Shown: positions 5,412 through 17,949 of the stretch, piece after piece
Layout: each line of letters begins with the position of its first letter
How positions within the stretch are numbered: position 1 is the first letter of the stretch
Assembly: GCA_018067325.1 (NCBI GenBank)
Contig: JAGPUU010000224.1
Span: forward strand, 1 to 17,949
Direction: 5' to 3'
DNA length: 17,949 bases
DNA from: Amphritea sp.
GTDB lineage: Bacteria; Pseudomonadota; Gammaproteobacteria; Pseudomonadales; Balneatricaceae
Translations under genes and position numbers: made by a program
The notes under the pieces: model-generated
Database searches by the model: none
The model's input: the letters and a program-made list of their open reading frames with translations, nothing else
Told to the model about the DNA's origin: nothing

Positions 5412-6296
5412 TTAAATGGAAGCCAGCAGCAGACCGATTAGCATTACCACTGTGCCTTGAATACGGGGCAGGCTCATTTTTTCCTGCAGCCAGATCGCAC
5501 CGATAATCACACCCAGTGGAATGCTGATCTGTCGCAGGGCGACCACATAGCTGACTTCCGTCACCAGAGTCATACTGGTCAGCACCAGCATATAGGTGCC
5601 GACGATAAAGAAACCGGCCAGTATGGCCATCCCCTTCTGTTGCAGACCCCTGAGCCGCTCTCCCGGTATCAAACCAATCAGCAGAACCATCCAGCTAACC
5701 GTTGTCACCGCCTGCAACACGACAAAACTACTGCCCGCCTGAAACGCGTTCATACCCGAATCACGCATGATCTGCAGCGCCATGCTATCAACGATGGAAT
5801 AGCCTGCTGTACCTACCGCTGCGAGCAGAACCCAGAACATCACCGGTTGCAGATAAAACCTGGGCCGCCAGTTTTTCCAGCGGCTCAGAGGCAAAGCGAT
5901 TGCACCCGCCAGAATAAACAGCATCCCCAGGCCTTCAACCGCGGTAACTGCAGTACTGCCATAGAGAATAACGATCACCAGCGGTACTACAACCACCGGT
6001 AACGCCCGAGCCAGGGGATATACCATACTCATATCACCGGAACGATAAGCCCGTGCTAAACCTATAAGATAGAGCCCCTGAAACAAGCCGGAGCAACAGA
6101 GCAACCACCAGAAAGTACTGGGTAGCCCCATCAATTGAATATCATGAAAAATCAGAAACGGGCTGAACATCAGCCCGCCCACCGCCATCGCCCAGATATA
6201 GAAGAGGAGCGTTTGTGCGACCCTCTTGCCGATCAGGTTCCAGCCCACATGAAACAGTGCAGAAACTATAATTAATATAAATGCGGTCAGTGTCAC
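5412..6296 (-). CDS. EamA/DMT permease associated with phosphonate catabolism
   Basis: This 294-residue protein has ten predicted transmembrane helices in two EamA-like halves (about residues 3-135 and 150-292), the drug/metabolite transporter fold. It starts with GTG inside the stop region of phnX (GTGA overlap of 4 bp), so the two are translationally coupled. A branch of this superfamily is known from phosphonate-degradation gene neighbourhoods (TIGRFAM 'phosphonate utilization associated putative membrane protein', from memory). Its substrate has not, to my knowledge, been shown; uptake of 2-aminoethylphosphonate or export of a pathway product are both possible. Inner membrane. It is the last gene of the phnW-phnX unit. 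Confidence 0.85.
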   Translation of the reverse strand: MTLTAFILIIVSALFHVGWNLIGKRVAQTLLFYIWAMAVGGLMFSPFLIFHDIQLMGLPSTFWWLLCCSGLFQGLYLIGLARAYRSGDMSMVYPLARALPVVVVPLVIVILYGSTAVTAVEGLGMLFILAGAIALPLSRWKNWRPRFYLQPVMFWVLLAAVGTAGYSIVDSMALQIMRDSGMNAFQAGSSFVVLQAVTTVSWMVLLIGLIPGERLRGLQQKGMAILAGFFIVGTYMLVLTSMTLVTEVSYVVALRQISIPLGVIIGAIWLQEKMSLPRIQGTVVMLIGLLLASI

Positions 6297-7120
6297 GGCT
6301 TCTCGCCAGTAGACATGCGCATCTCAATCTCTTCAAGCACAGGAATCAGATCGGCAATACTATCAATCACATAGTGCGCACCGGATCGATTAAAACGATC
6401 ATAGGCTCTGGCCCGCAACCGATCTTGTTGTTCAGCATCGGTTGCGTTCCACTCATTCAGACTCATACCCACCTCATTGCCGCTCACGGCTACGCCGACA
6501 GTCCACATCCCTGCGTTCAAGCCCTCATCAATACCCGTCAGAGTATCATCAACTTTTACGCAGGCGGCCAGATTCTCTACCCCTAATTCGATAGCATTCA
6601 TCATTGCCATATAGGGGTAAGGACGGCCTTTAGGCACCTGAGTAGCACAGACATTAGATGCGGGGTTGTAACCCTGCTCTGCGGCTTTCGCCAGCAACCC
6701 CTGAATCATAATATCCGCATAGCCGGTGTTGGCGCCGATCTTTACCTCGTTCGCATCAGCCCATGCAAGCAGGTCTGTGAGGCCGGGAATCAGAACCGCA
6801 GTTTCCGCAATGGCAGCAACCTGTAACGGCACGAACTCATCGTACATCCGATCGACATCGGCGTCTGTTGGCTCTGTGCCTTTAACCTCAACCCATGTAG
6901 CGCGAATACGGGGATGGCTGCACAGCTGACGGATATGTTCACGCTTCTCTGTGCCCATCGGCCCACGGGCTTCAACTTGCGAGATTGGTACCCCTTGGTT
7001 GGTAAACAACCCCTGAAATGCACGGATCGGTGCCATTGAACCAAAATCGACGGTAGTGCCCGCCCAGTCCATGATGATCGCCTGCAGTGGCCCGGTGTAT
7101 TGACGTTCGTAACGGTACAT
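6293..7120 (-). CDS. phnX: Phosphonoacetaldehyde hydrolase (phosphonatase)
   Basis: PhnX hydrolyses phosphonoacetaldehyde to acetaldehyde and phosphate, the second step of 2-aminoethylphosphonate breakdown, in the cytoplasm. The 275-residue protein is a HAD-superfamily member: nucleophile D18 in MDWAGTTVD, with alanine in place of the usual general acid aspartate two residues later as typical for phosphonatases. The Schiff-base lysine is K59 in GPMGTEKREHI in the cap domain. Motif II is at about GANTGY, the motif III lysine in VPKGRPYPY, and the acidic KVDDT motif near residues 190-194 binds Mg. Length is normal for the family. AGGAG lies before the ATG. It follows phnW by 41 bp and overlaps the permease gene, forming one operon. 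Confidence 0.95.
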   Translation of the reverse strand: MYRYERQYTGPLQAIIMDWAGTTVDFGSMAPIRAFQGLFTNQGVPISQVEARGPMGTEKREHIRQLCSHPRIRATWVEVKGTEPTDADVDRMYDEFVPLQVAAIAETAVLIPGLTDLLAWADANEVKIGANTGYADIMIQGLLAKAAEQGYNPASNVCATQVPKGRPYPYMAMMNAIELGVENLAACVKVDDTLTGIDEGLNAGMWTVGVAVSGNEVGMSLNEWNATDAEQQDRLRARAYDRFNRSGAHYVIDSIADLIPVLEEIEMRMSTGEKP

Positions 7121-7161: not shown

Positions 7162-8295
7162 TTAACTGTTTGGATTGCCATCAGGAATCTGCATCTCGTC
7201 CAGCACACTAACCATCGCTTCCAGTAGGCCATCGATCTGTTCATCATATAACTGACCGATGCAGCCCAAACGAAAGCTCTCAGCCGTCGTCAGTTTTCCC
7301 GGATAAATAATGTAGTTATGCGCTTTAAGCAGATCGTAAAACCGCTGAAAGCTAAAGTTTTCATGGCCAGGAGAGAAAAAGGTAACAATGATCGGTGACA
7401 GCCACTCATCCGCTAGTAGGGTGTGAAAACCGAGCTTACGCATCCCTGCCACCAGCCGCTGCTGGTTACGGCTATAGCGGGCAAAGCGACCGGCAATACC
7501 GCCCTCTTCTTCATGCTCTTTAAGTGCTTGTATAAAAGCGGAAACTACATGAGTAGGTGGAGTGAAACGCCACTGCCCGGTGTTCTCCAGATAGTGCCAC
7601 TGGTCGTACAGATCCAGACTCAGGGAGTGAGCATTAGATGCTGACTGTTGCAGCGCATCTTTTCTGATCAGCGCGAAGCCAAAGCCAGGAACGCCTTCAA
7701 AACACTTATTGGCCGAGGAGATAATGGCATCAAAGCGAACACTGCTACTGTGGATGTCGATAGCACCGAAAGCACTCATCGAATCAATAATCAGGCGGCG
7801 GCCATAGTGCTCCACCACATTAGCGATCTCTTCAACCGGATTCAGAATACCGGAGCTGGTTTCACAGTGCACCAAAAGCACATGAGTGATAGCGGCGTCC
7901 TGCTCCAGAACCGCAGCCACCTCGTCAGCCCGGGGCGGCTCATAGTCGCCTTTGTCCAGAACAACATAATCCCGGCCCATATAATCGAGAATTTTCGTCA
8001 TCCGCTGACCATATGCGCCGTTAATCAGCACCAGTGCTTTTCCCTGTTTAGGGATCAGCGTTCCGAGAGTAGCCTCCACAGTAAAGGTGCCACTGCCTTG
8101 CACTGGCACACAGACGAATTCACCGCTGTTATCCACATAGCTAACCAGTTGCTCACACAGCGATTGTGTCATAGCACGAAAATCACCGTCCCATGACCCC
8201 CAGTCCTGCAACATCGCCTGTTTAACAGTCTGACTCGTATTTATCGGCCCAGGGGTTAACAGCCAAGGCTGCTTAGGGGTTTGTGGCTGGTTCAT
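7162..8295 (-). CDS. phnW: 2-aminoethylphosphonate:pyruvate aminotransferase
   Basis: PhnW transfers the amino group of 2-aminoethylphosphonate to pyruvate, giving phosphonoacetaldehyde and alanine. The 377-residue protein is a class V-type PLP enzyme: N-terminal [25 protein letters not shown] near residue 64, the PLP-ring aspartate D171 in [10 protein letters not shown], and the PLP lysine K197 in [13 protein letters not shown]. The C-terminal domain has the expected [17 protein letters not shown] chose the ATG at 8295 because GGGAG lies five bases before it; in-frame starts at 8298 and 8322 are also possible. It leads the phnW-phnX-permease unit and is separated from polB by about 145 bp, room for its own promoter. 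Confidence 0.95.
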
Positions 8296-8440
8296 CATTA
8301 CTCCCGCAAAATCAGAAAACATCTGAATAAAAACAGAGGTTATTATCTGGGATTGATCAACTCATCACAGTGAAGTTTTAGTGAAACGCTAGGGGTAAAG
8401 CTTGTAGATATCAGCGCTATTTATAAGCAGTGAGATGCAA
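8296..8440 (-). promoter_or_regulatory. Probable promoter region of the phnW unit
   Basis: The gap between polB and phnW is AT-rich. Read on the minus strand it contains TATAAAT about 100 bases before phnW, but no convincing -35 at the right distance. It also contains a direct repeat TTCACT-N5-TTCACT and a TTGATCAA palindrome, either of which might be an operator. Read-through from polB cannot be excluded because I see no terminator here. Confidence 0.3.
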
Positions 8441-10822
8441 TCAAAAGAGACTGATCTGGGGAGCGGCGATGCCATCAAGACTGTCATCCATGAACATCAG
8501 TATTCCATCGGCGATAGGCACCAACTGACGATCAAAATAGTGCTGATAATCGATTAAGGAGGTTGTGATAGAGATCGGTTCTGGGCCATTTACAGTGATC
8601 AGGTACTCGATATAGGTCCCGGAAGAAAAAGTATCCAACTTTCTTCTTTTGGAAAGATGGTCGAATAGTTTTTGGGCTGCCTGCACATGGGGCGGACGAT
8701 TCTTACTGTACTCATCTAACGGGCGGCGCAGGCGTTTACGATAAACCAGTTCTTCATCCAGCTCCCCGGCTTTCATCTGAATAACGATCTGCTTAAGGTA
8801 AGCGGTATAGGGCGTATTACTGAAGATTAACCGGTAAAGCTCTCGCTGCACCCTACGCGCCAGAGGTGTCCAGTCTGAGCGTACCGTTTCAAGTCCTTTG
8901 AAAATAAGTTCTTCACTGCCATCGACAAAATGACGAATACCCGCATAACGCTTCTTAGTGCCTTTCTCAGAGTTTCGCATGGTCGGCATAAAAAAACGTC
9001 GGTAATGGGTTTCGTATTCCAGTTCCAGATGACAGGGCAAGCCGAAACGCTGTTGCACCTCTTCCTGCCACCACTGATTAAGAAAGATTTCCAGGCGACG
9101 CCCCTCTTGCTGGGTTTTATCCAAAGGGAAATCATCTCCCAGCCAGACAAACACCGAGTCGGTATCGCCATAGATCACCTGGTAACCAAACTCTTCCTCG
9201 ATTTTTTCCTGGGTACGGATGAGAATCTCGTGGCCTCGCAGGGTAATTGAGCCGGCAAGACGCTGATCAAAGAAGCGACAAACATTGGAGCCGAGTACCC
9301 CATAAAAGCTATTCATGATGATCTTAATCGCCTGGGACAACGGCGCATTCTTTTCAGCTTTTGCACGATCTCTTGCCTGCCACAGCCGTTCGATAATACC
9401 GGGCAGTATCGCCTCTTTACGATTAAAAATGGCGTGGTTAAAACCCGGCACCAGCTCTTCCGGGGGACACTCGGTGCCGGTCCCTTCCGCCAATGCAAAA
9501 GGATCGATCATGAAAGTACGAATAATACTGGGATACAGGCTCTTAAAGTCCAGCACCAGTACCTGATTATAGAGACCGGGCCGGGATTCCATTACATAAC
9601 CGCCGGGGGCGCCCATCTGCGATTCACCGGAGGCATACACAGGAGCAACATAACCTTTGCGATGCAGACGAGGCAGATACTGGTTATCAAAAGCAGCCGC
9701 AGAACCGCCCACCTTATCTAATGGCAGACCGGTCAAACGACTGCGCTCTATCAGGTAATGAAGCAACTTAGCGTGCTCAAAAATGTCCCAGACCAGCTTG
9801 CAGTCTTCCAGATTATATTCTGCCAACTGACGGGGGTTTTCCCGGTAAACCTGCTGAATCTCTTCCCCCTTGTTTAGGGTGAGTCCATCATCTTGCTGAT
9901 GACCGAGCAACTTACCTCTGTCCAGCAGTTGATTAGAGACATTCTCAAGGGAGAAGCTTTCAAATTGATAGGTTGCGCCCTTCAGGGTATCGATACCATC
10001 CAGCACCACCCGTCCGGCAATACGGCAAAACCACTTCCCATTGCCCGACTGAATAACCTGTATACGACTGCGATCACGGCCCAGACTCATGGGCACCTGG
10101 AGTCTTCGGGCCCGTTCTTCCAACACCCGAAAATCGAACCCGACGACATTCCAACCGATGAATATATCGGGATCACAGCGTTCTACTTCCCGAATAAACG
10201 CCTGCAGCAGTGCTCGCTCATCGTTTACATACTCTAGCCAGGGTTCATTCGGCCCCTCGCCGACAATCAGCACTTTACTGTATCGGTCTGAATAGAGTCC
10301 AATGGAGAAAATTCGGTCTGCCCGCATCGTGGTTTCAATATCCACCGATAGCATCGTCAGCTGAGGATCATAATCTGTCGGTAGCAGTTGTGCCGAATTT
10401 TCAGAGAAACGCACCCGAGCACTCTCCTGAATAAAACGCTCCATGAGAAAACGATCAACCGGACGTATATCCTCCTCGATCATCGAGATACCATAGGTCT
10501 GCAACAGGTCTGTCAGTTTTCGATAGGTGGCGATTGAACGGCTGTAAATGCCACAGATGGAACGTTGTTCAAGATCTTTCAGAGGTAGGGGTTTTAAGCG
10601 CCAATCGGTAACAGGTTCGAGTAATGGCTCGATTCGAGGAAGATCCTCTTCGAGGACAAAGAAGACAGCTTCCTGACCAGCCACCGTAACGGGAAACGCA
10701 CCCTGAGAACCTTTCAGCCAAAACTGAAAGCTAATTCCCTCAGGAGTATCAAACTGCTGACGCGTAAGAATAAAGCCGCTGGCTTCGCTATGTTCCCCAG
10801 ACTTAGGCTGATTAGACCGCAT
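8441..10822 (-). CDS. polB: DNA polymerase II (family B)
   Basis: This is a B-family DNA polymerase with 3'-5' exonuclease, in enterobacteria a damage-inducible repair and bypass polymerase. Numbering from the ATG at 10822 (793 residues; E. coli Pol II has 783): Exo I D161-I-E163, Exo II D230 in GWNVVGFDF, Exo III Y336/D340 in YNLEDCK, motif A D425 in LDFKSLYPSII, motif B K500 to NSFYG, motif C YGD553-T-D555. All catalytic residues are intact. The frame is open further up to a TTG at 10846 inside mvaD; I prefer the ATG four bases after the mvaD stop, implying termination-reinitiation. Being the last gene of the mevalonate operon is odd for a repair polymerase. I recognised no LexA box immediately upstream. 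Confidence 0.95.
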   Translation of the reverse strand: MRSNQPKSGEHSEASGFILTRQQFDTPEGISFQFWLKGSQGAFPVTVAGQEAVFFVLEEDLPRIEPLLEPVTDWRLKPLPLKDLEQRSICGIYSRSIATYRKLTDLLQTYGISMIEEDIRPVDRFLMERFIQESARVRFSENSAQLLPTDYDPQLTMLSVDIETTMRADRIFSIGLYSDRYSKVLIVGEGPNEPWLEYVNDERALLQAFIREVERCDPDIFIGWNVVGFDFRVLEERARRLQVPMSLGRDRSRIQVIQSGNGKWFCRIAGRVVLDGIDTLKGATYQFESFSLENVSNQLLDRGKLLGHQQDDGLTLNKGEEIQQVYRENPRQLAEYNLEDCKLVWDIFEHAKLLHYLIERSRLTGLPLDKVGGSAAAFDNQYLPRLHRKGYVAPVYASGESQMGAPGGYVMESRPGLYNQVLVLDFKSLYPSIIRTFMIDPFALAEGTGTECPPEELVPGFNHAIFNRKEAILPGIIERLWQARDRAKAEKNAPLSQAIKIIMNSFYGVLGSNVCRFFDQRLAGSITLRGHEILIRTQEKIEEEFGYQVIYGDTDSVFVWLGDDFPLDKTQQEGRRLEIFLNQWWQEEVQQRFGLPCHLELEYETHYRRFFMPTMRNSEKGTKKRYAGIRHFVDGSEELIFKGLETVRSDWTPLARRVQRELYRLIFSNTPYTAYLKQIVIQMKAGELDEELVYRKRLRRPLDEYSKNRPPHVQAAQKLFDHLSKRRKLDTFSSGTYIEYLITVNGPEPISITTSLIDYQHYFDRQLVPIADGILMFMDDSLDGIAAPQISLF

Positions 10823-10826
10823 TGGC

Positions 10827-11846
10827 TCAGCCAAAGGGGGCAACAACCTCCAATCCAGGGAAACGCAGCTTTACTTCAGCTTCAGCATCAGCGGTAAACA
10901 GTAGCTTAATATTCGGCCCCGCATCCATAGTAAAATAGAGCTCGACGCCTTCTGCCCTTGCCTGCCAAATACTTTGCATCGCGGCGACGGAGTCCGGTTG
11001 CCAATAGAGTAACGGCGGCCAGGAAGCTATCATCGTTGCATGCATAGAGAGCGCATTTTGCTCGGCGGTTTCACCCAATAGAGTAAAATTTTGATCGGCA
11101 ATCGCCCGGTGTAATCGCTCAAGGTCAGCCGCGGCCTGCAACGGCCAGCTCTGGTACAGGTGGGCGGTATCTACTGTTCGATTCATACCTGAACGAGAAT
11201 CTACCGCCTTCTCTCCGGTGCTCACCTTTACCAAGCCGACTCTCAGATCGCTCCAGCGAGTCGTTAACGGCAGCGCAAAGCTATCCATCCCATCTTCACG
11301 AACTCCCATCTGCCATTCGACAAAGCCTTCATAGAGGGAACGACTAGCACTGCCACTACCCATACGGGCAAAAGCGGATAGCACTTGAGGCTCCAAATCC
11401 AAACCATAAAAAGTGTTAACCGCCAGCATCAATGCCGCAAAGCCGGAAGCAGATGAGGCCAATCCGGCAGCGGTAGGAATATTATTCTCGGTTTCTACTT
11501 TAACTGAGTGAGCGGCACCACGGCGAAACAGCTCAATAAAGTTGATAACTTTGCGGGAAAACTTATCATCCGCAGCCACCAAATTGCCATTCAGCCAGAC
11601 CTGATCAGTATCGCTAACCGAGATACGGGTTTTACTACCCAGATGGGCAAGAGAGATCGACAAGCTACTGTTAATCGGCAGATTAAGCTCGGCATCGCGC
11701 TTACCCCAATACTTACACAGGGCAATATTGCTCGGTGCAAATACGGTATCTATGCTGTCCACCACCGGCACTACAGTAGCTGGCAGATAGCGTTCGATTA
11801 CGCTTTCTTTAGTGATAGCTTTAGAGCTGTCTTTAGATATATTCAA
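10827..11846 (-). CDS. mvaD: Diphosphomevalonate decarboxylase
   Basis: MvaD performs the ATP-dependent decarboxylation of mevalonate 5-diphosphate to isopentenyl diphosphate, the last step of the classical mevalonate pathway. The 339-residue GHMP-fold protein has NIALCKYWGK (40-49) with both conserved lysines, LPINSSLSISL, the phosphate loop AAGLASSASG (126-135), the GSGSASRS segment with R169, and D308 in MDAGPN, the catalytic aspartate of the family. These fit the diphosphate-specific enzyme rather than the monophosphate decarboxylases. The proposed TTG start overlaps the previous gene by 14 bp, giving an N-terminal extension of about 35 residues before APSNIAL; a GTG further in would shorten it. 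GAAGGG lies eight bases before the TTG. Confidence 0.93.
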   Translation of the reverse strand: MNISKDSSKAITKESVIERYLPATVVPVVDSIDTVFAPSNIALCKYWGKRDAELNLPINSSLSISLAHLGSKTRISVSDTDQVWLNGNLVAADDKFSRKVINFIELFRRGAAHSVKVETENNIPTAAGLASSASGFAALMLAVNTFYGLDLEPQVLSAFARMGSGSASRSLYEGFVEWQMGVREDGMDSFALPLTTRWSDLRVGLVKVSTGEKAVDSRSGMNRTVDTAHLYQSWPLQAAADLERLHRAIADQNFTLLGETAEQNALSMHATMIASWPPLLYWQPDSVAAMQSIWQARAEGVELYFTMDAGPNIKLLFTADAEAEVKLRFPGLEVVAPFG

Positions 11847-12774
11847 CGGTCACACCCTTCTGAGAAACAGCCACAGGTATTTGTTCATAAGATAACTGAT
11901 AGTCTGATGGGTTCCCTAGAGCCAGAACACAATCACCCAGGCCTGAACCGGATATTTTGGCACCAAGGACATCTGGAGAACTTCTTAATGCATAGATTAT
12001 CTCCGCCAGGTTGCGGTCATTTACGCCCAGCGCATCCATTAGTCCCTGGTAGATATTCATCAGGCGACCAAATTGCGGCCAGTCCGTGTTATCCACAGCC
12101 AATTCGGCTTGCTCGGCGGTTTGCCCCATCAAGCGGTACAGTTCAGCATAGAGTTCCGGCGACTGAGCCGAGAAGCCTTCAACCCGCTTCAATACATCCG
12201 GGGTTTTCATCTTATAACCGACGTAAAAAAGGCTAATAGTGGGGATGCCCTGCAATGCCCGTATCTGAGGGGCGGTATCGGCAGTGGCAACGGTATACCC
12301 AACCACACCCCCAAAGACCGCAGCCACCAGATCGGTACCTGACCCCCGACCATCCTGCACCTGATGGACTACCGCCAGGGTTTCATTAAACAGCGCCTGC
12401 TGATCTTCACACCTACTGCCTGTATAAGCTTGCAGCGCGGTCACAACCGCCACCGTTACCGCCGCAGAAGAGCCCAGCCCCACGGTATGAGAAAATTCAG
12501 AACGTATCTGCAGATCGAACCCACTCGGTAACCGTGCAGCCTGGCGCTCTATCGCGGCCAGAACAAAACTGAGCGCCGGCTCAGACTTCAACGGGTCAAG
12601 ACTCGAGTGGTACTGAGCCAAAGCTGAATCGATATTAACGTTGCGATCTGTGCGAGGAGTTAGCGTGACCGCGATACGTTTGTCCACTGCACAGGCCAGC
12701 GCCCGCTGCCCAAACAAGACTGCGTGCTCCCCCATCAACATCAGACTACCAGGGGCTGTGACTTTAATCTTCAA
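11833..12774 (-). CDS. GHMP kinase, likely mevalonate kinase (archaeal-like)
   Basis: This 313-residue GHMP kinase has PGSLMLMGEHAVLFG (8-22), the ATP loop GLGSSAAVTVA (99-109), the putative catalytic aspartate D148 in GRGSGTDLVAAVFGG, and a C-terminal GAKISGSGLGD in place of the usual GAKLTGAGGGG. The segment GRLMNIYQGLMDALGVN resembles archaeal mevalonate kinases as I remember them, so I lean to mevalonate kinase (mevalonate to 5-phosphomevalonate). A phosphomevalonate kinase role is not excluded because two GHMP kinases stand side by side. I chose the TTG at 12774: GGAGGAG is six bases upstream and homology begins right there. A longer frame from 12843 would overlap the preceding gene by 80 bp. 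It overlaps that gene by 11 bp and mvaD by 14 bp. Confidence 0.85.
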   Translation of the reverse strand: MKIKVTAPGSLMLMGEHAVLFGQRALACAVDKRIAVTLTPRTDRNVNIDSALAQYHSSLDPLKSEPALSFVLAAIERQAARLPSGFDLQIRSEFSHTVGLGSSAAVTVAVVTALQAYTGSRCEDQQALFNETLAVVHQVQDGRGSGTDLVAAVFGGVVGYTVATADTAPQIRALQGIPTISLFYVGYKMKTPDVLKRVEGFSAQSPELYAELYRLMGQTAEQAELAVDNTDWPQFGRLMNIYQGLMDALGVNDRNLAEIIYALRSSPDVLGAKISGSGLGDCVLALGNPSDYQLSYEQIPVAVSQKGVTVEYI

Positions 12775-13765
12775 GACGGGCTCCTCCACTGTCCTCTTCA
12801 ATCGCCATGATTGAATAACCGTTTTGTTCACAAAGCTCTGCAAGGTCGATCTCTGGAGAATAGGCGATCAAAGCACCGGCCCCAACACCCTTAACAGAAC
12901 CGGCTCCGCTCACTTTCGCAGCACCACCCAATTGTTCAACCGCCGTAATAAACTGTTGAACCGGCTTTGGCACTACCCCGATCTGAGTTAACAGGCGATG
13001 ATTTTCCCTAAGTGGTTCACGGGGGTCATCACCTTTAACAATAGCATCCGTCAGCTGTCTGGTAATCGCACTAAAATCCTGCCAGATACTAGACTGGCCG
13101 AAACGACTACGGACAAAATCGACACAGTCGCCGGTACCGGCTTCAGGTGTTCCACTGTGAATATAGTACCAACCTGCCCCAAGCTGTAGCGACAATGGCT
13201 CAACCTGACCGTTCGTGACCTGCACCAGCCCACCATAACTCACGGTCGCGGCATCGATGAGCCCGCCACGCCCATGACACAGGCGTTCACAGTAACGCAC
13301 CCGTTGAAAAAGCTCAGCGGTATTGAAAGGTTTAGAAAAGAGGTTTTGACCGAGAGAGGTAACCGCCGCACCCAACGCTGCGGAAGAACCCATACCTGAT
13401 CCGAGCGGCAATTGAGAATAGATCTCCAGCTGCAATCCAGTTTCAGGAGCAGCGTCAGGCAGACACAACCCCAAAGCATACAAAGCCAACTGCTGAGGCG
13501 CTTCAAGGATATCACCGGCCGTTAATTCACCCGCTTCAAAGAGGCTAAAACGATAATCGAGGTAGGAGACTAACTGACGCAGATCTGACCAACTGATGTG
13601 CCCTTGCCAACCCGCTTCAGGCAGATGCCAACTAAGGCCGTCGGTTTGAGTCTGTTCTGCACTGCATTTGATATAGCGGTTTACCGCCAAAGCGATAGCC
13701 GGGGCCCCGTAAACTGCTGAGTGTTCACCACTGAGAATCAGCTTACCCGGGGCACACGCCTTCAT
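12764..13765 (-). CDS. GHMP kinase, likely phosphomevalonate or mevalonate kinase
   Basis: This 333-residue GHMP kinase has an N-terminal APGKLILSGEHSAVYG (5-20), the ATP loop LGSGMGSSAALGAAV, HGRGGLIDAATVSYGG with the putative catalytic aspartate, SGTPEAGTGDCVDFV, and a C-terminal AAKVSGAGSVKGVGAG in which the usual GAGGGG is expanded. HGxGGxxD is mevalonate-kinase-like, while APGKL and the GTPEAGT segment recall phosphomevalonate kinases. By elimination one of the two tandem kinases must make mevalonate diphosphate if the pathway is complete here, because MvaD is of the diphosphate type. I mildly favour this one for that job. The gene follows mvaS by 12 bp with AAGGA before the ATG, in the middle of the operon. 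Confidence 0.83.
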   Translation of the reverse strand: MKACAPGKLILSGEHSAVYGAPAIALAVNRYIKCSAEQTQTDGLSWHLPEAGWQGHISWSDLRQLVSYLDYRFSLFEAGELTAGDILEAPQQLALYALGLCLPDAAPETGLQLEIYSQLPLGSGMGSSAALGAAVTSLGQNLFSKPFNTAELFQRVRYCERLCHGRGGLIDAATVSYGGLVQVTNGQVEPLSLQLGAGWYYIHSGTPEAGTGDCVDFVRSRFGQSSIWQDFSAITRQLTDAIVKGDDPREPLRENHRLLTQIGVVPKPVQQFITAVEQLGGAAKVSGAGSVKGVGAGALIAYSPEIDLAELCEQNGYSIMAIEEDSGGARLED

Positions 13766-13777
13766 GAAGGGGTTTCC

Positions 13778-14944
13778 TTAGCAGGAGATGTATTCACGCT
13801 TATGATGGGAGATACCCACTAGACGGAATCGCCCGGTGGTACCTTCAGCCTTAACATGCTCGCCACCATCAACCGGATCGACATCATTATAAAGCTTCAG
13901 ATATTCATCATAAGAGACTTCGCTACGTGCCTCTAGCATCAACTGGTGACGGTCTTTGTGCAGGTAGTTCTCGTAACCGGCAACAACCGTGCCTGAGAAA
14001 AACTCTGCAACGCAACCGGAGCCATAACTGAAAAAACCTACCCGGTTACCGGCCAGATTTTGCTTACAGTTTTCCAGCAGTGACGCCAGGCCAATATACA
14101 TCGATGCGGTGTAGCTATTACCGATGATACGGTTATATAACAGGGTATCTTCTACCTGAAGGTCCAGCAGCTCGGGTGTCAGATTACTCTGATTGATACG
14201 CGCAAGATGCTTATGTGCCTTTTGAGCCATACGGGTAAAAGGCAGGTGGTAGCAGAAATGTTGCATATCACTGAACGCCACCGAGCTGACTTCACGGAAG
14301 TGAGCCCAGGCATATTTCAGCGATTTCAAATAAATTTTAGTGGAGTACTTACCATCAACCAGTGCGGTTGAACGGTAATTAGGGCGCCAGAAGTCCATCA
14401 CATCTTCGGTGTGGTTGCCGACCTCGGGGTCCAGTTCAACCAGACGAGGGTTCGCTGTAATCAACATCGCAACAGCACCACAACCCTGAGTCGCCTCACC
14501 GGAAGTGCCCAGATCATAGCGAGCAACATCTGACGCAATCACCAGCACTTTCGTTTCCGGCTGGCGAGCAACAAGAGCACAAGCCATCTGGATCGCTGCG
14601 GTGGCGCTATAACATGCCTGTTTCAGTTCAACGACGCGACAATTCGGCGTTAAACCAAGCAAACGGTGAACGTAGACACCAGCAGACTTTGACTGATCGA
14701 TACCAGTCTCGGTCGCAAACATCACAGTGCTGATAGCATCTGTACCCACCCGCTCTATGAGAGGCAGGGCAGCGTTTGCAGCCATAGTCACTACATCTTC
14801 ATCCGGGGCAGGCATGCCCATTTTTTCTTGGCCTATCCCCTGATAATACTTTTCAGCATCAATTTCCTGAACCGTAGCAAGGTTCTTCAGATCCAGAAAA
14901 TAATTAGAGGTGTAAAAGCTGATTTCATCAATACCGACGGACAT
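13778..14944 (-). CDS. mvaS: Hydroxymethylglutaryl-CoA synthase
   Basis: MvaS condenses acetyl-CoA with acetoacetyl-CoA to HMG-CoA, the first committed carbon-building step of the pathway, in the cytoplasm. The 388-residue protein is a thiolase-fold enzyme of bacterial length. The catalytic triad sits at E79 (FATETGID), C111 (ELKQACYSAT) and H233 (FCYHLPFT), the same numbers as in the well-studied Staphylococcus enzyme. IASDVARYDLGTSGEATQG and SYGSGCVAEFFSG are further family hallmarks. It starts 15 bp after the isomerase gene; the only SD-like GAGG overlaps the isomerase stop codon, so coupling is likely. No acetoacetyl-CoA thiolase gene is in the window; it must be supplied from elsewhere. 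Confidence 0.97.
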   Translation of the reverse strand: MSVGIDEISFYTSNYFLDLKNLATVQEIDAEKYYQGIGQEKMGMPAPDEDVVTMAANAALPLIERVGTDAISTVMFATETGIDQSKSAGVYVHRLLGLTPNCRVVELKQACYSATAAIQMACALVARQPETKVLVIASDVARYDLGTSGEATQGCGAVAMLITANPRLVELDPEVGNHTEDVMDFWRPNYRSTALVDGKYSTKIYLKSLKYAWAHFREVSSVAFSDMQHFCYHLPFTRMAQKAHKHLARINQSNLTPELLDLQVEDTLLYNRIIGNSYTASMYIGLASLLENCKQNLAGNRVGFFSYGSGCVAEFFSGTVVAGYENYLHKDRHQLMLEARSEVSYDEYLKLYNDVDPVDGGEHVKAEGTTGRFRLVGISHHKREYISC

Positions 14945-14959
14945 ACGTACTTAAAATCC

Positions 14960-15991
14960 TCAACGCTCGCCCAGAATGAGAGCCCGATTCATAAATAAAC
15001 TATTCACATCCGGCATGCCCAGCAAAAACATCGCTGTGGTGAATTCACGCCGGCGCTGTTCTATCACCTTAACCACAGAATCCGCAGAATCCATCGCGGG
15101 TTTGAGGAAGGGAGCGGCCATGCCGCACAGCGAGGCGCCGAGTATAACAGATTTAACCATATCAATCCCATCCCTGAGACCGCCGCTAGCGATGAAACCT
15201 GCACTATTTTGATAGGGTTGGGCCAATTTTAGTGCCTGAGGAGTTGGAATACCCCAATCTTGGAAACAAAGCCCCAGATCATCACCCCTATCCGCACTCC
15301 GATGATGCTCTATTCTGCTCCAGGAAGTACCGCCGCAACCCGCCAGATCAAACCACTTGATACCGGCGGACAGACCAGCCTCGATATCCTGCGGAGAAAG
15401 CCCTGCCCCTACCTCTTTTAGTAGAACAGGCACATTCAGACCCGCTGAAACTGCGGCAATTTTTGCCTGAAGTTCGGAAAAATCAGTATCACCTTCCGGC
15501 TGTACCGCTTCCTGTAGTGGATTGAGATGCAAATATAGCCCGTCAGCCCCTAACAACTCTACCGCCTGCTGACACTGCTCCAAAGAAAAACCATAGTTAA
15601 GCTGTACAGCTCCTATGTTACCCAGCAACACAGTACTAGGCGCATAACGGCGCAGATCAAAACTTTCACGGGACGATGATTGGGTAAACATAACACGCTG
15701 AGAGCCCACCGCTAATGCAACTCCGGTGCGCTCAGCAGCTTCCGCCAGATTACGATTGATAGTTTTAATCAGCGTATGATCACCACCGGTCATCGAAGAG
15801 ATAAGCAGTGGAAAACTCAGCCTCTTCCCGAGAAATTCAACCGAAGTATCTATACTATCCAACGCCAGATTGGGTAACGCCCGGTGGCTCAGCTGGATCT
15901 GATCAAAATAGCGCCCATCCCGATCTGTTAACGGGTCGTTTTCAATTGCCCGGATATGTTCTATTTTTCGATCATTAGTCTGATCAGACAT
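14960..15991 (-). CDS. fni: Type 2 isopentenyl-diphosphate isomerase (FMN-dependent)
   Basis: This enzyme interconverts IPP and DMAPP with reduced FMN and Mg. The 343-residue TIM-barrel protein shows RKIEHI at residues 8-13, ISSMTGG (65-71), AVGSQR (94-99), HLNPLQE with the catalytic Q160 and the Mg ligand E161, LKEVGAG, DLAGCGGTSW and ASGGLRDG for FMN phosphate binding. It shares one base with the end of mvaA (TGATG), so translation is coupled. The presence of a type 2 rather than type 1 isomerase is typical of bacteria using the mevalonate pathway. The name idi2 is also used. Confidence 0.96.
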   Translation of the reverse strand: MSDQTNDRKIEHIRAIENDPLTDRDGRYFDQIQLSHRALPNLALDSIDTSVEFLGKRLSFPLLISSMTGGDHTLIKTINRNLAEAAERTGVALAVGSQRVMFTQSSSRESFDLRRYAPSTVLLGNIGAVQLNYGFSLEQCQQAVELLGADGLYLHLNPLQEAVQPEGDTDFSELQAKIAAVSAGLNVPVLLKEVGAGLSPQDIEAGLSAGIKWFDLAGCGGTSWSRIEHHRSADRGDDLGLCFQDWGIPTPQALKLAQPYQNSAGFIASGGLRDGIDMVKSVILGASLCGMAAPFLKPAMDSADSVVKVIEQRRREFTTAMFLLGMPDVNSLFMNRALILGER

Positions 15992-17028
15992 CAGCGTTCC
16001 ATTTTAAGGTGAGATTCCATCAACTCACCCGGGTTGGTCTGAGCCGCCATCAGAGAAAGCTCACCACAGAGTACCGTCGCAGCGCAGATAGCCGCCAAAC
16101 GACGTGCATTCGCGCCCGGTTCCCGGTCATCTTTACAACCTAGCTTACGGAGATTCTCCTCAACAAAGTCGATTCCCTTACCGTTACCCACACTACCCAT
16201 AATAAGGTTGGGCAGCGTGCATGAGAAATACAGGTCTCCACCCCGCACTTCCGCGTGCACAATACCCTGCGAGCCTTCAATAATATTAGCGGCATCCTGC
16301 CCAGTCGCCAGGTAAAACGCCAATAACATATTCGCAAAATGGGCATTCGCACTGCGTAAGCCACCCGCCACAATAGTACCGATCAGGTTTTTCTTAATAT
16401 TAAGATCAACCACTTTTTCAGGCGTAGTTTTAAGACGTCGCTCGCAAACATCCCGAGGAATCAGAATTTCACTCACCACATACTTACCACGACCGAGAAT
16501 ACCGTTAACCGCAGTGGCCTTCTTATCGGAACAGTAGTTGGCAGAAATAGATGAATAGCGAAGCTGAGGGTATTGTTCAAGAATCCAGGGGATCAACTTA
16601 TCGGCGGCATTAGTCACCATATTATGCCCCGACGCATCACCGGTATTAAATTCAAGTCGCAGGTAGATCAGATTGGCGACAATCTGGCTGTTCATATCAA
16701 TTAATTTTGCGAAACGGCTGCTTGTTGCTACAACTTCGTTAAGGTCATCTTTGCGGGCTTTAATCGACTCAAGCGCTTTAAGCGCTTCTAAAGCGTCATC
16801 AGCTTCCAGCAGAATAGAGCGGCTCATCCGCTCATCAATAACCGTCGTTTTAATCCCCTCTTCTGCCAGCACGGAGATTCGGGCTCCACGGCCAACGGAG
16901 GGCCACAGAGGCGTTTCATAAGTAGCCAGTGGCACTGCAATCTTTTCGTTAAGGACATGCCCACTAATTTTAATCGGACCGACGGTCCGCATAGGAATGG
17001 GGGCTTGCTGGATTTTATGGGATTTCAT
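15991..17028 (-). CDS. mvaA: Hydroxymethylglutaryl-CoA reductase, class I-like
   Basis: HMG-CoA reductase makes mevalonate from HMG-CoA with two NAD(P)H. The 345-residue protein lacks any membrane segment, so it is a soluble catalytic domain. Counting from the ATG at 17028, the tetrad is E38 (TYETPLW), K169 (NYCSDKKATAVNG), D245 (ATGQDAANI) and H340 (MESHLKM). The dinucleotide motif is NTGDASGHNMVT. The C-terminal histidine, the SDKKxxAVNxxxGRGK segment and the NAHFANMLLAFYLATGQD region look like class I (eukaryote/archaeal type) rather than the class II Pseudomonas mevalonii type. An in-frame TTG at 17043 is less likely because it would sit at the end of the leader U-run. First gene of the operon. 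Confidence 0.94.
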   Translation of the reverse strand: MKSHKIQQAPIPMRTVGPIKISGHVLNEKIAVPLATYETPLWPSVGRGARISVLAEEGIKTTVIDERMSRSILLEADDALEALKALESIKARKDDLNEVVATSSRFAKLIDMNSQIVANLIYLRLEFNTGDASGHNMVTNAADKLIPWILEQYPQLRYSSISANYCSDKKATAVNGILGRGKYVVSEILIPRDVCERRLKTTPEKVVDLNIKKNLIGTIVAGGLRSANAHFANMLLAFYLATGQDAANIIEGSQGIVHAEVRGGDLYFSCTLPNLIMGSVGNGKGIDFVEENLRKLGCKDDREPGANARRLAAICAATVLCGELSLMAAQTNPGELMESHLKMER

Positions 17029-17044
17029 AATCTCTCGACACAAT

Positions 17045-17095
17045 AAAAAAGGGCTGCCGCGATCAATATAGGTTTGATCTGCACTGCACCCCTTT
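17045..17095 (-). terminator. Terminator-like hairpin in the mvaA leader (possible attenuator)
   Basis: On the minus strand, AAAGGG pairs with CCCTTT (17090-17095 with 17048-17053), TGC pairs with GCA after one mismatch, and an inner GATCAA/TTGATC stem (17074-17079 with 17061-17066) encloses a seven-base loop. The outer stem runs into a run of six U that ends 16 bases before the mvaA ATG. No minus-strand gene ends nearby, so the structure seems placed in the leader itself. The stem is interrupted by an internal loop, so strength is uncertain. Confidence 0.5.
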
Positions 17096-17121
17096 AGGTA
17101 GCTCGTATTGAGTGAGGATTT

Positions 17122-17150
17122 TATATAGCCGCCGCTTAATATGCAATCAA
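17122..17150 (-). promoter_or_regulatory. Sigma-70-type promoter of the mevalonate operon
   Basis: On the minus strand TTGATT (17145-17150) and TATATA (17122-17127, running into AAA) are separated by exactly 17 bases. Transcription would start near 17114 and give a leader of about 85 nucleotides that contains the terminator-like hairpin. Each box matches the consensus at four of six positions. Confidence 0.55.
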
Positions 17151-17212
17151 AGGCCTGCCGGGTGAGTGATTCAGCAGACCGTACCTTTTGTACTCAATCT
17201 GTCAGATCAGAC

Positions 17213-17242
17213 TTGACCACCCAGAATCACCCCAGCCATACT
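17213..17242 (+). promoter_or_regulatory. Candidate promoter of the small gene at 17281
   Basis: TTGACC (17213-17218) and CATACT (17237-17242) are 18 bases apart and lie about 40 bases before the start codon, divergent from the mevalonate promoter. The -35 box is good and the -10 box weak. Confidence 0.35.
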
Positions 17243-17280
17243 TGCGTCTTTACTAAACCAGAAACAGTGGAAATCAGGAT

Positions 17281-17634
17281 ATGCTCTACGCAATCAGAAA
17301 TGAACAGGGACAGATCACTTCTCTGTCAATGCATCAGGTTGGCAACTCAGCCGTAGCGGATATAACTGATCCTGAAGTTGTAAGCTTCCTATCCAATAGC
17401 AATGAAGCGAGCAGTCCTCAAGATTTTTTGGAAAAATCAGATGCTGATGTCAGCCGAATCATTGAGGATCTTATCGAGCTACTAATCTCAAAAAACACCA
17501 TCCTGTTTACTGACCTTCCAGAAGCCGCGCAACAGAAGCTCCTGACCCGTAAACTCGCTCGCTCAGCTTACGATACCAACCCGGAAAAAATTTCTCTGGC
17601 GAATTCTATTCTTACTGATGATGACACTATCTGA
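17281..17634 (+). CDS. Small conserved protein ('tryptophan synthase subunit beta-like')
   Basis: This 117-residue soluble acidic protein begins MLYAIRNEQGQITSLS and contains DVSRIIEDLIELLISKNTI, then LFTDLPEAAQQKLLTRKLAR. It matches, from memory, a small family common in Pseudomonas and relatives that databases call 'tryptophan synthase subunit beta like protein'; it lacks every catalytic feature of TrpB, so the name should not be read as a function. It is likely a helical protein with an N-terminal beta hairpin. The ATG at 17281 has only a close-set AGGA upstream. It is transcribed away from the mevalonate operon and convergent with the next gene. Function unknown. Confidence 0.8.
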   Translation: MLYAIRNEQGQITSLSMHQVGNSAVADITDPEVVSFLSNSNEASSPQDFLEKSDADVSRIIEDLIELLISKNTILFTDLPEAAQQKLLTRKLARSAYDTNPEKISLANSILTDDDTI

Positions 17635-17662
17635 TTTAAGCTAATTGAAAGAAGCAGGATAC

Positions 17663-17949
17663 TCAAAGACCGGTTTCAGTCTCATGCTTTAACTGCGCCT
17701 TAGAGCGAATCATCTCAGCGCAACGATCGGACAGAGAGAGATAACGTTTCTGCTGTCGCACACTCAAAGAACCATAATTAATGCTATACATTGCATTATC
17801 ACACTGCAGCAGTAACTCATGACATTCTGGACCGGGATGCCGAGCCTGCTCCAGAGCCGTCTGCACCAAATTCAATGTCAGACTGGGATTATTCGGCAAA
17901 ATCCCATCGGCACGCACAAAGAACCCCAGCGCTTTGCGGTACTCTTTCT
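17663..17949 (-). CDS. C-terminal part of a gene running off the window (TPR-like)
   Basis: The frame is open to the right edge, reading KEYRKALGFFVRADGILPNN and on through SLTLNLVQTALEQAR and QQKRYLSLSDRC to the stop at 17663. A GTG at 17917 is in frame, but the coding pattern continues upstream, so I treat the gene as partial at its 5' end. The helix-rich pattern with LPNNPSLTLNLVQ resembles the last repeats of the tetratricopeptide response regulators of pseudomonads, a resemblance from memory only. It converges on the preceding small gene with 28 bp between. Confidence 0.6.
   Translation of the reverse strand, partial: KEYRKALGFFVRADGILPNNPSLTLNLVQTALEQARHPGPECHELLLQCDNAMYSINYGSLSVRQQKRYLSLSDRCAEMIRSKAQLKHETETGL

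Follow-up and report, generated by a model that had tools for sequence, protein, structure and literature searches.

The mvaA leader in the window, a whole 17,949-nt contig of Amphritea sp. DNA, contains a terminator-like hairpin lying between the predicted promoter and the start codon of the first gene of the mevalonate operon, and a hairpin with a U-run in this position is present in 72 of 114 mvaA leaders of the Nitrincolaceae. The simplest reading is that the hairpin would be an intrinsic terminator in the operon's own leader, that is, an attenuator. With a probability of about 0.62, we favour a Rho-independent leader terminator that would act as a fixed or generally modulated attenuator and would, in relatives, also end the tolC message; such an element would probably turn the isoprenoid pathway down. 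The initial annotation of this DNA had suggested an attenuator here, and the attenuator-like placement and terminator-like make-up that it described hold up well at the level of sequence, given their conservation in several genera, the paired changes of the arms and the controls. The features of the window are as follows.

10827..15991, minus strand: remaining mevalonate operon, from open reading frames (ORFs) and Pfam (FMN_dh-type protein, HMG-CoA synthase, two GHMP kinases, diphosphomevalonate decarboxylase)
15991..17028, minus strand: mvaA, HMG-CoA reductase, first gene of the mevalonate operon (Pfam PF00368, 282.9 bits)
17031..17036, minus strand: likely ribosome binding site GAGAGA, outside the hairpin, judged from the sequence
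17045..17050, minus strand: run of six T (U-tract) directly 3' of the G+C-rich stem, from the sequence
17048..17095, minus strand: terminator-like hairpin, from folds and relatives
17095-17090 and 17053-17048, minus strand: outer stem, AAAGGG with CCCTTT, from sequence and fold
17079-17074 and 17066-17061, minus strand: inner stem, GATCAA with TTGATC, loop 17073-17067, from sequence and fold
17109..17113, minus strand: expected transcription start, from the usual distance to the -10 element
17118..17123, minus strand: -10 element TAAAAT, 17-nt spacer from the -35 element, from sequence and conservation
17141..17146, minus strand: -35 element TTGCAT of the mvaA promoter, from sequence and conservation
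17281..17634, plus strand: divergent neighbour ORF of 117 aa from the ORF list, without a Pfam family
17663..17947, minus strand: 3' end of a TPR-type protein gene, cut by the window edge, the next upstream gene on the mvaA strand

The two-part stem, the six U and the 16 bases (17044-17029) that separate the hairpin from the mvaA ATG at 17028 are all found where the initial annotation had placed them, and in the fold additional pairs in the middle join the outer and inner stems. The region 17100-17040 folded at -20.7 kcal/mol, whereas shuffled sequences averaged -12.1 (sd 2.5; z -3.4), and 2 of 200 shuffles folded as well. Using a terminator score, d, with a formula from the literature, we obtained a value of 23.6 for the hairpin; none of 200 dinucleotide shuffles of the leader reached this value and one scored above zero. 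When both strands of 17029-17949 were scanned the hairpin was the only site with d > 0. It has the make-up of an intrinsic terminator, a G+C-rich stem directly followed by the U-run, the last three T of which are unpaired in the fold and identical in all 12 aligned hairpin-bearing Amphritea leaders, the window included.

A promoter had been proposed within 17122-17150, and this is borne out by TTGCAT (17146-17141) and TAAAAT (17123-17118), each identical in the same 12 leaders, so that TTGCAT-17-TAAAAT can be described as a conserved, predicted mvaA promoter. TTGCAT also precedes mvaA in leaders without the hairpin, for example in the genus groups g2, g8 and g28. Simple promoter and terminator scans of the window picked up neither the promoter nor the hairpin, because TTGCAT matches the -35 consensus in three of six letters and the stem is interrupted; the support for both elements is their conservation, not these scans. 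We also observed that the region after TAAAAT is often G+C-rich (such as CCCGCGCAGCC) in many leaders of the family, and such a start region may resemble promoters under stringent control. The suggestion that the hairpin might hide the ribosome binding site fared less well. GAGAGA (17036-17031) sits outside the hairpin, which makes masking unlikely, although the fold from the assumed start places weak pairs near the ribosome site.

A match to mvaA was present in all 116 family genomes searched and the leader could be read in 114 of them; G106 and G115 (no leader) were left out and the leader of G008 was 69 nt. The hairpin is found in 12 of 16 genus groups; by our own matching to named relatives the groups fall among Amphritea, Marinobacterium, Neptuniibacter, Neptunomonas, Nitrincola, Motiliproteus, Pokkaliibacter and Osedax symbionts. 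It is present in 13/17 leaders of the window's own group, g1, and in every leader of g3 (7/7), g4 (6/6), g5 (8/8), g6 (1/1), g7 (8/8), g22 (1/1), g26 (11/11), g27 (8/8) and g29 (7/7), in 1/6 of g25 and 1/11 of g28, and in none of g2 (13), g8 (5), g23 (1) and g24 (4). Absence in 42 leaders was established from leader scans and reading of the sequences, followed by the d score. Scanning the last 100 nt of each leader gave d > 0 in 71 of the 72 with the hairpin, the lone exception being Pokkaliibacter G021 (d = -5), compared to 3 of the 42 others, where the highest value was 13.5. The g25 leaders G068 and G070 contain other weak hairpins with T-runs approximately 100 nt before the ATG, outside the region scanned. 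Every one of the 72 stems is followed by three or more T. In most leaders measured 14-28 nt separate the end of the hairpin from the ATG, and in six g5 leaders and G093 this distance is 38-73 nt. In the groups without the hairpin the same promoter leads straight into mvaA, and the absence of the hairpin from 42 of 114 leaders indicates that it is dispensable.

Outside the family, mvaA (E <= 1e-60, 69-73% identity) was found in 4 of 372 genomes sampled from the same order, and none of these four leaders carried the hairpin. On a tree of mvaA proteins the hairpin state needs at least 7 changes; this was a quick tree of 84 proteins, 81 of which carried labels, including three from outside the family, and many of its forks are weakly supported. 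The hairpin occurs on deep branches, namely Motiliproteus sediminis (L113), Pokkaliibacter (L119) and the Osedax symbionts, and an old element lost several times would for this reason be the simpler reading of these sequences. L119 was labelled hairpin-bearing by inspection, as it was not among the hits of the model search.

We also observed paired changes in the stem. The pair counts used 57 of the 72 hairpins, omitting five exact duplicates, six further duplicates or near-duplicates, and G004, G021, G037 and G069, in which the MAFFT alignment was out of register or an arm was gapped. In these rows 98.4% of the cells of the nine core pairs are paired, and both sides have changed in 15 cells, in three pairs; five of the 15 cells (g29) can alternatively be read as a stem one pair shorter. 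Covariation among relatives had been suggested as a check, and the arms do change in step: the covariation score was 0.203 compared to 0.146 +/- 0.006 in shuffles, none of 500 being as high, it fell to 0.033-0.130 with the pair partners slid, and uncorrelated changes were not seen. Neither the number of pairs with changes on both sides (three; 90/500 shuffles as high) nor the number of further pair types (nine; 216/500 as high) exceeded the shuffles. Outside the 57 rows, GGGAAA pairs with TTTCCC in G021, and in G004 the 5' arm has been rewritten and the stem restored. The loop is variable in both length and letters. Within the 12 aligned Amphritea leaders the two promoter elements, -35 and -10, and the last three T each had a mean conservation of 1.00. 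The 3' arms scored 0.93, the outer and inner 5' arms 0.83 and 0.91, and the loop 0.65; the comparison regions gave 0.85 (start to hairpin), 0.79 (promoter spacer), 0.68 (upstream of the promoter) and 0.92 (T-run to ATG). At 0.83-0.91 against 0.85 for the flank, the 5' arm is conserved no better than this flank within the genus.

One exact pattern of the hairpin occurs in the window's genome only at mvaA. A covariance model of the hairpin, R1, found matches elsewhere in many genomes, including seven at E <= 0.01 in G000 and matches scoring as high as 40.6 bits where mvaA itself has no hairpin, and the idea of the stem as a unique mvaA signature was rejected on these grounds. At L203:1501-1534 and in L206 near 1501 we observed terminators with nearly the same GGGTTGC stem, the mvaA leaders there being without the hairpin. 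The two R1 matches looked at follow a prolyl-tRNA synthetase-type gene in L203 and an M16 peptidase-type gene in L206, and as they follow other genes they look like ordinary terminators.

Whose transcript the hairpin would end is also a question of its neighbours. Among 80 named loci we sorted out those with a TolC-like gene, a TPR-type gene, the divergent ORF or argininosuccinate synthase next to mvaA. A gene for a TolC-like outer membrane protein (PF02321 in all six examples scanned) lies upstream on the same strand in 34 of the 80, and all 34 have the hairpin. The TolC-like stop codon falls between 0 nt (L053, L054, L055, L064) and 65 nt (L108) before the -35 element, measured at the 32 of 34 loci with a promoter found, with a larger gap in L111. 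Between this stop codon and the mvaA ATG the hairpin is the only site with d > 0 in 28 of the 34, and in the other six it is the stronger of two, preceded by a weaker site. With an adjacent TPR-type gene the hairpin is present in one of 11 loci (L103 and L104 sharing one assembly), and behind argininosuccinate synthase in 3 of 5. That presence tracks the neighbour in this way, 34/34 against 1/11, also fits a role for the upstream gene, and it is possible to argue that the hairpin is only the terminator of that gene, TolC-like or TPR, with an incidental effect on mvaA. We consider this improbable. The hairpin is kept with a divergent ORF in between, in 10 of 11 named Amphritea loci as well as the window, and at three Marinobacterium loci (L060, L074, L077) where a separate terminator of the upstream gene precedes the mvaA promoter (d 52, 43 and 32). 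In Amphritea the TolC-like gene, 39-41% identical to the Marinobacterium one, is located elsewhere, and the mvaA-type hairpin follows it in none of the eight genomes checked; another site with d 4-17 does so in six and no site in two. A hairpin that belongs to and follows tolC was accordingly rejected. Together, the divergent neighbour, the separate upstream terminator and the absence after tolC elsewhere suggest that the hairpin goes with mvaA and is not merely the end of the upstream gene, and because it is located after the mvaA promoter it would act on mvaA transcripts too.

A baseline from the complete Amphritea genome G015 points the same way. In 20 stretches of 20 kb (400 of 3833 kb, one stretch picked for mvaA) the 100 nt before the start contained a terminator with d >= 20 for one of 94 ORFs with a divergent upstream neighbour, this being mvaA itself (d 22.6, close to the threshold of 20) and leaving 0 of the 93 others, and for 10 of 168 with a co-directional neighbour. 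Taking d > 0 and the first ATG only, the counts were 2/98 (mvaA at 22.6, the other at 0.05) versus 17/187. These counts are blurred by start errors since the ORFs were called mechanically. The initial annotation had held that no gene needs a terminator here. This is fair for the adjacent divergent neighbour in the window, but the TolC-like gene of 34 of 80 named relatives would use the hairpin and, in the window itself, the hairpin is the first and only terminator candidate between mvaA and the end of the co-directional TPR gene at 17663, about 520 nt above the -35 element.

Another possible role would be a regulated attenuator, in which a signal such as isoprenoid flux, another metabolite or a protein relieves or imposes termination, giving feedback at HMG-CoA reductase. 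A place in front of a pathway that is probably the only source of isoprenoids would suit such a device. To look for an anti-terminator, we compared the pairing of the 5' segment with the 5' arm against shuffles in 66 of the 72 leaders, six having no promoter match. Pairing was no better than in shuffles in g1 (mean z -0.07, 12 leaders), g3 (+1.29, 7), g4 (0.16, 6), g5 (-0.35, 8), g7 (0.25, 8) and g27 (0.13, 8). The values for g26 (-1.63, 9 leaders) and g29 (-1.80, 4 leaders with segments of approximately 100 nt) were lower; for G093, with a segment of 1 nt, z is meaningless. A clear, repeated 5' partner occurs only in Neptuniibacter (g26), where in most leaders CAACCUU can pair with the 5' arm AAGGGUUG. 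No conserved anti-terminator was found family-wide, g26 alone being suggestive, and most leaders tested have only 13-21 nt before the arm. Rfam gave no match over the window at gathering thresholds, a lax search of the leader region returned three hits, all far below threshold, and in the window's leader the 16 nt between the assumed start and the arm contain no ATG, GTG or TTG. As neither a conserved alternative structure nor a known RNA family was found, and the window's leader holds no ORF, the feedback from isoprenoid flux that had been proposed is not supported, and we regard a regulated attenuator as unlikely. The narrower proposal, that the leader is an RNA attenuator sensing isoprenoid supply or growth state with the Neptuniibacter CAACCUU as its anti-terminator, appears more doubtful again. 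In L059, L061, L062, L066 and other Neptuniibacter loci, CAACCUU is complementary to the 5' arm, a possible anti-terminator of this genus alone.

Two further roles can be considered. The hairpin could steady the mRNA or shape ribosome access from its 5' position, with the U-run as a by-product, and the 14-28 nt between its end and the ATG in most leaders would fit this. We think this very unlikely, as the T-run present in all 72 leaders would be needless for such a role, the ribosome site is outside the hairpin and the distance to the ATG grows to 38-73 nt in the six g5 leaders and G093. The leader could also be a gene for a small RNA of about 65 nt acting elsewhere, having as it does its own promoter and a terminator-like end. 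From one genus group to another, the leader 5' of the stem varies greatly, and in leaders without the hairpin mvaA is transcribed directly from this promoter; these two points leave the small RNA gene with hardly any likelihood.

Returning to the leader terminator, the predicted promoter, hairpin and U-run, the order of these parts, their conservation, the paired changes and the adjacency to tolC suggest the following model. RNA polymerase starting at the mvaA promoter would reach the hairpin after about 65 nt, where part of the transcripts would stop and the remainder would read through to feed the operon, so that the hairpin would hold expression of the operon at a reduced and more or less constant level. 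At loci with a TolC-like gene ending close to the mvaA promoter, it would terminate the tolC transcript as well. Termination, its strength and read-through without a dedicated sensor are what we infer from this arrangement.

As a marker for the other isoprenoid route we searched for PF02670 (deoxyxylulose-phosphate reductoisomerase), the one gene of that route sought. It was matched in 11/11 genomes outside the family (E <= 4e-22), and in 17 of 23 family genomes searched nothing was found. The remaining six gave partial matches at the profile end (21.5-23.7 bits, E 2e-4 to 9e-4), flagged above the family cut-off of 21.7; with these E-values we rejected them as reductoisomerase and take them for other proteins. 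Since the family genomes searched have no convincing PF02670 match, the mevalonate operon is probably the only isoprenoid source in the family, and strong termination would then need ample read-through.

Terminators in the leaders of biosynthetic operons are familiar from riboswitch and leader-peptide attenuators, and the mvaA terminator would likewise lie in such a leader; the mvaA leader differs in having no aptamer match, leader ORF or family-wide alternative structure. A closer likeness is to E. coli ampC/frd, where the promoter lies at the end of the upstream unit and a leader hairpin terminator serves both units, with growth-rate-dependent read-through a feature of the ampC-type attenuator (PMC6045580). 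As judged from sequence, the mvaA loci with a TolC neighbour would have this anatomy, and as in the ampC type the mvaA hairpin sits between its own predicted promoter and the start codon. The genes are different, however, the adjacent ORF in the window is divergent and start codons are absent from the leader there up to the hairpin. In the nlpD1 terminator and penA attenuator, the terminator of the upstream gene is the attenuator of the next, and there the promoter between gene and terminator arises by mutation, unlike the conserved mvaA promoter (PMC6045580).

In a literature search that took in titles and the openings of abstracts, with few subscription journals, we recognised no account of a terminator in the leader of a bacterial mevalonate operon, nor of control of such an operon by RNA. 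The hairpin would be a cis-acting control of such an operon, in a family seemingly without another isoprenoid pathway. It would also add a widespread example to the cases in which a single hairpin terminates one unit and attenuates the following one. Since leaders with and without the hairpin occur naturally behind the same promoter, its effect is directly testable. The regulated reading, if true, would be a bacterial RNA-level counterpart of feedback on HMG-CoA reductase.

The surroundings of the operon gave some additional observations. The closest named relative found was Amphritea sp. OB2, with an mvaA 99% identical to that of the window, and the FMN_dh-type protein of the operon is, from its family, likely to be a type 2 isopentenyl diphosphate isomerase. 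The 117-aa ORF keeps its divergent place next to mvaA in Amphritea, with relatives at 52-97% identity in 11 named loci. The TPR-type protein of the window shares 36% identity with a TPR/response-regulator protein whose gene lies immediately upstream of mvaA in Nitrincola schmidtii (L088). In G002 (C1:3590051-3591081) mvaA seems to be split into two frames, possibly through a sequencing error, and the two mvaA loci L103 and L104 (Nitrincola sp. A-D6), on separate contigs of a single record set, encode identical proteins. Downstream of the operon there appear, by eye, to be a family B DNA polymerase gene (8441-10846) and two phosphonate-degradation genes (7162-8322 and 6293-7120), all on the minus strand.
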